Assembly: GCA_944392865.1 (NCBI GenBank)
Contig: CALXYD010000014.1
Coordinates: 1 to 32,849 of the forward strand
Direction of reading: 5' to 3'
DNA: 32,849 bases
From: an uncultured Alphaproteobacteria bacterium
GTDB lineage: Bacteria; Pseudomonadota; Alphaproteobacteria; RF32; CAG-239
In this document: one piece after another, positions 5 to 1,134 of the stretch
How positions within the stretch are numbered: the first letter of the stretch is position 1
How the letters are laid out: the number at the start of each line of letters is the position of its first letter
The notes under the pieces: generated by a model
Told to the model about the DNA's origin: nothing
The model's input: only the letters and a program-made list of their open reading frames with translations
Databases searched by the model: none
Translations under genes and position numbers: made by a program

Positions 5-77
5 AATCGGACTCTTTGCAAGGCTTGAAATACATACAAGAAAAGCACCTCAAAAGGTGCATTATCAAAAATGGTGC
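5..77. repeat. Direct repeat copy 1 (tRNA-Thr 3'-flank-like)
   Basis: This 73-nt block matches 993-1065 without gaps. The 3' half is nearly identical: the terminator-like hairpin (GCACCT at 45-50, AGGTGC at 55-60) and the following bases up to TGGTGC differ at one position. The 5' half is only about 70 percent alike, but both copies begin with AATCGGACT. In copy 2 the final TGGTGC is the complement of the tRNA-Thr 3' end including CCA; in copy 1 no intact tRNA follows, although another ATCGGACT word, the T-arm word of tRNA-Thr, occurs at 94-101. It is either a decayed tRNA-plus-terminator duplication or an attachment-site-like duplication. Confidence 0.7.
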
Positions 78-289: not shown

Positions 290-318
290 TTGACTCGTGT
301 TTGAAAATATGATATATA
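290..318 (+). promoter_or_regulatory. Probable sigma70 promoter for the RNA at 325-821
   Basis: TTGACT at 290-295 and TATATA at 313-318 are 17 bp apart; an overlapping TATAAT lies at 317-322. An A/T palindrome (GGAAAATTTTTC, 276-287) lies immediately upstream and could act as an UP element or operator. Transcription would begin near 325. No protein gene follows on this strand before a terminator at 797-821, so the product should be an RNA. Confidence 0.55.
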
Positions 319-324
319 TAATAC

Positions 325-821
325 TGTTATTTTATTATTTAACGACAAGGAGTGACAAAAAACTGATTCTTTTTATGTAAGGCATTAACATCATCACGCA
401 ACACCATGTGAGAAAAGTGACTGTGATGGTCGGATGTTAATTTTAAGGTAATTACTCTGATGAGGAGTAGTTGATTTTTATAGGTTAAACTAAGTATTTA
501 GATATTAGACTAGACTAAAAGTTTAGATATTGCTAAAGAAAGGGTTTAAGTATAAAGGTCGGGCTGCTTTATTATAGAATGAATATAAGCTTTGTCATGA
601 ATAGGATACGCAGCAATCAATCAGGAGGAGACTAGAAATGGGGTGCTTGCCAGTTTTAGTTTTTGATTGAAATAAGCGGAGAAATTATTATGCCAGGCAC
701 TGCCTCGTAACTGGTTCTGCAAACTTCTAGTTCTGGTGTTGGAATTAGAACCTAGTAGGACAAAAGAGCGAGAGAGAGAAATTCTTTATGAATTTTAGCT
801 CCCTTCGGGGAGCTTTTTTTT
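325..821 (+). ncRNA. Candidate structured non-coding RNA, about 500 nt, family not recognised
   Basis: The interval has a promoter at its start, an intrinsic terminator at its end and no convincing reading frame. Local helices visible by eye are 384-392 with 433-441, extended by 392-397 with 423-428; 450-457 with 465-472; GCTGC 563-567 with GCAGC 610-614; TCAATCA 617-623 with TGATTGA 664-670, enclosing 631-636 with 655-660; 713-716 with 749-752, enclosing 727-733 with 742-748; and 779-784 with 790-795. A TTTAGATATT word occurs twice near 500-535. I looked for tmRNA, RNase P, SRP and 6S hallmarks (T-loop, tag reading frame, GAAAGTCC core, SRP tetraloop core) and found none. The nearest downstream plus-strand gene has its own promoter, so this is probably a standalone RNA and not a leader. 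Exact ends are estimates. Confidence 0.5.
797..821 (+). terminator. Intrinsic terminator with UUCG tetraloop
   Basis: AGCTCCC (797-803) pairs with GGGAGCT (808-814) around a C(TTCG)G loop, followed by a run of eight T. This is a textbook rho-independent terminator and fixes the 3' end of the upstream RNA. Confidence 0.9.
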
Positions 822-823
822 GT

Positions 824-992
824 TTAACTTTTATTGTATCTAAGTGCGGATGATTTTTTTAATTCTTCAACATTACTGATTCCAATTATTTTCATTTTTA
901 TAGAATCCATACATTTTAGACTTAGAATATAAATATCTTGTGATTAAAAAGTCCGATAATTCTTTTAAAACCTTCAAATTAAAAACATCTAA
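824..992. other. AT-rich spacer without a recognised gene
   Basis: No start codon with a good SD and no long frame is present. On the minus strand two overlapping frames stay open for about 40 codons and end at roughly 832 and 880. They read like ordinary AT-rich sequence; a decayed gene end cannot be excluded. AGTCCGATAATT at 949-960 is the inverted counterpart of AATTATCGGACT at 90-101, another copy of the word family that marks the repeats here. Confidence 0.4.
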
Positions 993-1065
993 AATCGGAC
1001 TAATCGAAAGCCTTGGAATATATACAAAAAAAGCACCTCAAAAGGTGCATTATCAGAAATGGTGC
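993..1065. repeat. Direct repeat copy 2, overlapping the tRNA-Thr 3' end
   Basis: This is the ungapped partner of 5-77. It contains the minus-strand terminator of tRNA-Thr and its last six bases are the complement of the mature tRNA 3' end with CCA. The T-arm word AATCGGACT recurs at 993-1001 and, inside the intact tRNA, at 1076-1084, so the copy looks like part of a tRNA-plus-terminator unit. About 915 bp, containing only the candidate RNA, separate the two copies. Confidence 0.7.
1026..1048 (-). terminator. Terminator of tRNA-Thr
   Basis: On the minus strand GCACCT and AGGTGC (plus 1033-1038 and 1043-1048) form a six-pair stem with a four-base loop, followed by seven T. It lies about 12 nt past the CCA end of the tRNA. 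Confidence 0.75.
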
Positions 1066-1134
1066 CGCTAGTAAGAATCGGACTTACGACCCCGTCATTA
1101 CCAATGACGTGCTCTACCACTGAGCTATAGCGGC
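1060..1134 (-). tRNA. tRNA-Thr (anticodon GGT)
   Basis: The minus strand reads as a full cloverleaf: acceptor GCCGCTA/TAGCGGC, D-arm GCTC-loop-GAGC, anticodon stem CGTCA/TGACG with loop TTGGTAA (anticodon GGT, reading ACC and ACU threonine codons), variable loop GGGTC, and T-arm GTAAG-TCCGATT-CTTAC. The discriminator is A and CCA is encoded. A promoter at 1164-1191 and a terminator at 1026-1048 make it a single-gene transcript. Its T-arm and 3' flank are the source of the repeat words upstream. Confidence 0.97.

Follow-up and report, generated by a model that had tools for sequence, protein, structure and literature searches.

A mobile tRNA-Thr cassette with a predicted orphan RNA product in an uncultured alphaproteobacterium

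The window, as the whole 32,849-nt stretch of DNA analysed here is called, is contig C14 of a MAG of 1.58 Mb in 87 contigs (G000, the window's own genome), assigned to an uncultured alphaproteobacterium; it starts at a contig end, inside a repeat. The related genomes with which it was compared likewise carry the label Alphaproteobacteria in their record titles in the genome collection. Near the contig end lies a cassette of about 0.87 kb (about 90-960), placed directly at the 3' end of a tRNA-Thr gene, and the features of this region are as follows.

5 to 77, minus strand: distal copy of a 73-nt direct repeat, from repeat comparison and an att model match at 3-77; it runs into the contig end.
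70 to 101, minus strand: distal cassette end, P-arm-like, reading AGTCCGATAATTGCATAGTATCTC then GCACCATTT, from comparison with relatives and a P-arm model.
90 to 962, no strand assigned: cassette body, with inverted ends ATTATCGGACT (91-101) and AGTCCGATAAT (950-960); the same ends occur in relatives.
290 to 318, plus strand: promoter-like site TTGACT-17-TATATA, a motif read off the sequence.
317 to 322, plus strand: TATAAT, an alternative -10 to TATATA.
326 to 820, plus strand: candidate structured RNA, a predicted transcript judged by its fold and by the lack of an ORF or Rfam match; the start site is inferred.
353 to 597, plus strand: domain I, outer helix (353-358/592-597, 366-383/566-584), from base-pair probabilities, as are the next four rows.
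Within domain I, plus strand: inner helices 385-392/433-440, 451-458/464-471 and 473-491/543-560.
609 to 678, plus strand: domain II (617-623/664-670, 628-643/648-663).
700 to 776, plus strand: domain III (700-708/768-776, 714-720/755-761, 725-734/741-750).
778 to 796, plus strand: hairpin preceding the terminator.
797 to 820, plus strand: intrinsic terminator with UUCG loop and T-run, from a terminator scan and base-pair probabilities.
947 to 1065, minus strand: tRNA-proximal attachment repeat, from alignment with relatives and model matches; it doubles as the tRNA's terminator.
1060 to 1134, minus strand: tRNA-Thr (GGT), the integration anchor, from tRNA calls.

The first-pass annotation had proposed a large RNA gene at 290-821 and had missed the direct repeat pair that encloses it, 5-77 and 993-1065, which is 73 nt long and 88% identical. 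The copy at 993-1065 serves tRNA-Thr as 3' flank and terminator. Each 73-nt copy belongs to a longer attachment repeat of about 118 bp, of which the contig end truncates the distal one. The layout of the tRNA-proximal repeat is GCACCA, terminator, AGTCCGATTTT and ATTATCGGACTTT, and a full spacer in the tRNA direction reads from AGTCCGATAATYGCA to GCACCATTT, followed by the terminator, AGTCCGATTTT, about 35 bases and ATTATCGGACTTT, with the piece from GCACCA to the end measuring 116-119 bases in most copies scanned. In relatives the repeat recurs beside tRNA-Thr at steps of about 0.7-3 kb, and a sequence model of it matches 131 of 152 family genomes (E<=1e-4). A search of the species genome collection with an exact pattern for the other half of the spacer gave 53 stretches; every one lies in a MAG titled as proteobacterial or as an unnamed bacterium, most carry the label Alphaproteobacteria, and viral contigs contain none. 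Among 125 model-start sites in the loci examined, 28 directly adjoin tRNA-Thr(GGT), one tRNA-Gly(CCC) and one tRNA-Leu(TAA). Folding of four strands of the inter-cassette repeat gave no consistent sign of an attC-like hairpin, the z scores being mixed (+0.1, -0.6, -2.5 and -2.9). With attachment repeats on both sides and no recombinase or transfer genes of its own, the cassette has the make-up of a cis-mobilizable element (CIME). The interval 90-960 is almost certainly an inserted member of a family of mobile cassettes.

Several related structures lie elsewhere. The window's own genome has a second attachment repeat directly behind tRNA-Gly(CCC), followed by an 823-aa ORF (C15:27676-27794; L066:5677-5795), so the cassettes are not limited to tRNA-Thr. 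The distal end of another cassette lies at the end of contig C60 (L067:7870-8005), and C60 and C14 may flank a missing part of one array. Separate from these, an island in a relative (G008:C38; L071:5710-6873) encodes a tyrosine integrase (Phage_integrase, Arm-DNA-bind_3) and also uses tRNA-Thr, a 46-nt part of which is copied at its far end.

What such cassettes usually carry was assessed in array loci picked, non-randomly, from the listed matches of the repeat searches, first 57 loci plus the window and then 40 more. In the first sample, 75 segments with a length of 300-6000 bp lay between sites, and all but that of the window (74 of 75) held an ORF of at least 90 aa; after the 40 loci had been added, the segment of the window was the only one of 84 two-site segments without an ORF of 60 aa. 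Inclusion of distal ends gave 126 segments in 73 loci (a few of which overlap), and just two of these had no 50-aa ORF, namely that of the window and a 285-bp remnant (L269:3137-3421), which is a short degraded piece. Five further segments that first seemed to be ORF-less (L059:9077, L063:5742, L141, L149 and L154) are in fact coding across the repeat. The units are mostly one-gene, the middle 90% spanning about 0.6-2.4 kb, and gene orientation is mixed, with 51 of 99 pointing with the tRNA. A scan of 94 of the 99 listed cassette proteins yielded 61 Pfam families, the commonest among the 25 families listed being Bro-N (4), then Fic, GNAT and Imp-YgjV (3 each), and PADLOC matches among the 94 include PDC-S04 (7), PDC-S13 (4), UzuA (2) and restriction-modification. 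Because this cargo includes restriction, candidate phage defence, GNAT and Fic proteins, the array resembles a reservoir of accessory and defence genes. The cassettes also travel: 55 of the 126 segments have a relative in another genus (45 pairs; blastn matches over at least 60% of the shorter segment), the best at 99.3%. Genera g1 and g8 share one restriction-modification cassette with 98.7% identity over 2362 bases, and the same phosphatase cassette occupies position one in G011 and position two in G009. Single-gene cassettes are thus exchanged between genomes at one kind of site, as in integrons.

A candidate for the enzyme responsible is found in a relative (G017), where a gene for a 514-aa large serine recombinase with Pfam Resolvase, Recombinase and Zn ribbon domains (C45; L064:11126-12670) overlaps, by its own 3' end, the 3' end of tRNA-Thr. 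Homologues are present at E<=1e-20 in 71 of 152 genomes. Among the 30 loci listed, 12 encode proteins 81-100% identical to that of G017, and these close relatives have tRNA-Thr(GGT) at the gene's 3' end in 11 of 12 cases and an attachment-model match in 10 of 12. The other 18, at 33-49% identity, have neither tRNA-Thr nor an attachment-model match (0/18), and tRNA-Pro, -His or -Asp accompanies 5 of them. That a large serine recombinase moves the cassette is plausible, and mobilisation by the enzyme of a related element is suggested by this association in relatives. In the window's own genome, a MAG in 87 contigs, there is no homologue at E<=1e-20, for which an unassembled contig, a lost motor or the use of another recombinase could each account. 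Four tyrosine-recombinase matches were found in the same genome, two on C1 and one each on C4 and C10, with none on C14. An island on C1 with integrase matches was considered and rejected; it contains a single AGTCCGAT, and ARAGORN calls no tRNA in it. A Cas9-like protein (Pfam Cas9_a) is encoded near the two integrase-domain matches on C1 (L222:12460-14001), possibly within a broken island.

On the plus strand 326-820 has an MFE of -133.2 kcal/mol and a z score of -5.51, with none of 100 dinucleotide shuffles equally stable; the minus strand gives -82.4 and -1.60, and a shorter cut, 340-822, gives a z score of -3.87. The difference between strands, 48 kcal/mol, was matched by none of 700 GC-matched 460-nt segments of related DNA, although 59 of the 1400 strands of those segments are as stable as the RNA. 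Among random 460-nt segments, 4 of 45 from the window and 4 of 45 from cassettes reach a z score of -3 or lower, so a low z alone is only moderately rare. With 23% G and 12% C, the plus strand is rich in G and poor in C; part of the strand asymmetry follows from this, because such a composition favours G-U pairing. The RNA has a GC content of 35%, compared with 24% and 21% for the flanking cassette DNA on its two sides. The predicted fold comprises three domains and two 3' hairpins. The observation of a structured interval, made from the sequence alone, is confirmed. All three of the helices named for it recur: 384-397/423-441 as 385-392/433-440 (P 0.93), 617-623/664-670 as drawn (P 0.97), and 727-733/742-748 as 725-734/741-750 (P 0.77).

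The ends of the unit are of unequal strength. The UUCG terminator is strong, its stem at 797-814 being followed by a T-run, and terminator-like sites number 3 in 1-1400 vs 0.7 expected. At the other end the reported promoter can be read, as TTGACT-17-TATATA, but a generic scan finds no excess of promoter-like sites (7 vs 5.7 expected), so the element at 290-318 is only suggestive of a promoter; the same region is 78-80% similar over about 60 nt to sequence upstream of genes in L079 and L132. The strand-specific stable fold and the intrinsic terminator are together those expected of a stand-alone RNA transcription unit.

The longest open plus-strand frame in 290-830 has 40 codons, vs a mean of 45.5 in shuffles, which is normal for the length and composition and agrees with the earlier view that the interval has no usable frame. 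With stops read through, the six frames of 102-948 yield neither a Pfam nor a PHROG family at E<=1, and among 5183 open frames of the loci examined none matches inside 150-930 at E<=10. Two tiny frames lie within the RNA, one with AGGAGG then ATG at 638 (MGCLPVLVFD, within 623-670) and one with GGAG then ATG at 690 (MPGTAS, within 678-710). At Rfam thresholds only the two tRNAs pass, and cmscan with all 4227 Rfam families found no credible match at E<=10 in 1-1330 or 300-830. The assertion that the RNA belongs to no recognised family, and shows no tmRNA, RNase P, SRP or 6S hallmark, thus held, and the match to tmRNA, RNase P or an intron that was to overturn it did not appear. Neither tmRNA nor alpha_tmRNA (RF01849) gave a covariance-model match in those two intervals, and the genome's own alpha tmRNA sits at C9:42658-43003. 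Rfam contains families for RNase P, 6S, SRP, group I and II introns, ROOL, GOLLD, OLE and HEARO, and all of these are absent from the cmscan output at E<=10. An idea that the RNA is a CsrA sponge was dropped after a by-eye count of GGA motifs.

Searches for relatives of the RNA were made at the DNA level in 57 relatives, 152 family genomes and 153 order genomes, sets that overlap, and returned only short, weak matches of 20-60 nt. Those that were opened are due to chance, to promoter-like sequence or to the terminator: they are unrelated coding genes by eye (L018, L019, L078, L082 and L084), promoter-like stretches upstream of other genes (L079, L080 and L132), a stretch immediately before another gene (L077), or the bare terminator alone (L002, L003 and L007). 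Plasmids gave no match, phages matched nothing but the tRNA, and three exact 19-22-base pieces of the RNA were absent from viral contigs; two single-sequence covariance models, one for each half, had no match in the 152 genomes other than the window itself. Conservation in relatives, on which the first-pass annotation had staked its proposal, is therefore lacking in the related genomes searched. Because the RNA travels in a mobile cassette, this neither proves nor kills the RNA reading. What stands of the large RNA gene is a single structured non-coding unit of about 495 nt with no known family; its placement in an undescribed class is unproven, because with no relatives there is neither a class nor covariation.

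These data support a mobile, orphan RNA cassette and not a fixed chromosomal gene of recognisable class. The cassette of about 870 bp occupies the tRNA-Thr slot that in relatives holds arrays of protein-gene cassettes exchanged between genera. A serine recombinase of the kind found at tRNA-Thr in relatives would insert and remove such cassettes in trans at the GCACCA core, and transcription from a sigma-70-type promoter near 290-318 to the terminator at 797-820 would yield a three-domain RNA of about 495 nt. A plus-strand RNA is the probable product of the cassette. Its neighbours (restriction, candidate phage defence, Fic, GNAT) suggest that the RNA has an accessory role, with phage defence or gene regulation most likely; as a guess from context this is tentative, and it is the weakest step of the proposal. 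Taken whole, a mobile gene cassette with an RNA product, a serine recombinase acting in trans and an accessory role is the account we favour on balance. Against it stand the lack of an RNA relative anywhere searched, the 59 of 1400 matched strands of equal stability, a promoter not above chance in the generic scan, and a genome without a recombinase homologue at E<=1e-20. A bolder version, in which a tRNA-Thr-anchored, serine-recombinase-driven and defence-stocked exchange works like an integron and one of its cassettes specifies no protein but a folded, new-class RNA of about 495 nt that itself carries out defence or regulation, is rather unlikely.

One alternative is that the gene of a former protein cassette was lost by mutation, leaving a fold that is residual or due to chance. 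Nearly all other cassettes are coding, and the promoter together with an AAGGAG near 347 that has no start codon would fit a lost gene, but no protein family or relative appears in any frame, the fold is strand-specific and the terminator is intact, so that decay seems distinctly improbable. Less probable still is a small-protein or dual-function cassette whose product comes from short frames preceded by good ribosome sites, with the fold serving as their leader. The frames at 638 (AGGAGG-ATG) and 690 (GGAG-ATG) invite this reading, as do the rarity of such sites (5 of 2000 shuffles reach the 3 GGAG-to-ATG pairs seen here, in which one ATG counts twice, and 50 of 2000 do so for AGGAGG alone) and a 28-aa frame on the minus strand at 824-910; yet the two plus-strand frames are just 10 and 6 codons long, the ATG at 638 sits within a predicted helix, and there are no relatives showing that the frames are kept. 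That the cassette is passenger DNA moved by its ends, with nothing useful inside, would accord with the missing conservation and with the ORF-less cassettes of incompletely understood role described in part of an integron source (PMC6557892), and is nonetheless very improbable, given a terminator, a raised GC content and a strand-specific fold that are unexpected in filler.

The cassette links an orphan large RNA to a site-specific cassette exchange that is present in most genomes of an uncultured gut family. If the RNA works, structured RNAs would be tradeable in the same way as single genes. The array is in addition a defined place in which to seek more structured RNAs as well as defence genes that are new, while the recombinase offers a testable tool for integration at tRNA-Thr. 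Literature searches on tRNA-anchored arrays, on serine recombinases with arrays and on mobile cassettes at tRNA-Thr, which stopped short of full texts, returned no description of the system.

Three known systems invite comparison. ROOL and GOLLD are, in the portion of their description drawn on here, bacterial RNAs of large size and marked structure, with no known function, and are often found near tRNAs on mobile DNA (PMC12286853); the candidate RNA is similarly large, predicted to be structured, and close to a tRNA on mobile DNA. They form many-member classes in phages and prophages (PMC12286853), whereas the RNA of the window is without known relative.

Integrons resemble the present arrays in having small, mostly one-gene cassettes with related repeats and inverted ends, at least in the excerpted account (PMC6557892). 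The same excerpts describe ORF-less cassettes, such as that of sRNA-Xcc1, and 13 of 63 oral cassettes without an ORF, so that a cassette carrying only RNA, here a predicted one, has counterparts among them (PMC6557892). Unlike integrons, the arrays are anchored at a tRNA 3' end, hold genes in both orientations and are likely served by a serine recombinase; C14 has no tyrosine recombinase, although the contig starts inside the array and an unassembled neighbour is possible. The attC core boxes of integrons are RYYYAAC/GTTRRRY, in place of which the conserved repeat ends AGTCCGAT/ATCGGACT are found here.

The ssrA islands of Dehalococcoides, as far as the sections of the source used here describe them, involve the serine recombinase DsiB and cis-mobilizable elements (PMC3146451). 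As in the tRNA-Thr arrays, units accumulate in tandem behind an RNA gene, a gene for a serine recombinase lies next to the attachment repeat, and some units have no recombinase at all (PMC3146451). They differ in their tmRNA target, 20-bp repeat and multi-gene cargo, in contrast to the repeats of about 118 bp and the mostly one-gene cassettes at tRNA-Thr (PMC3146451).
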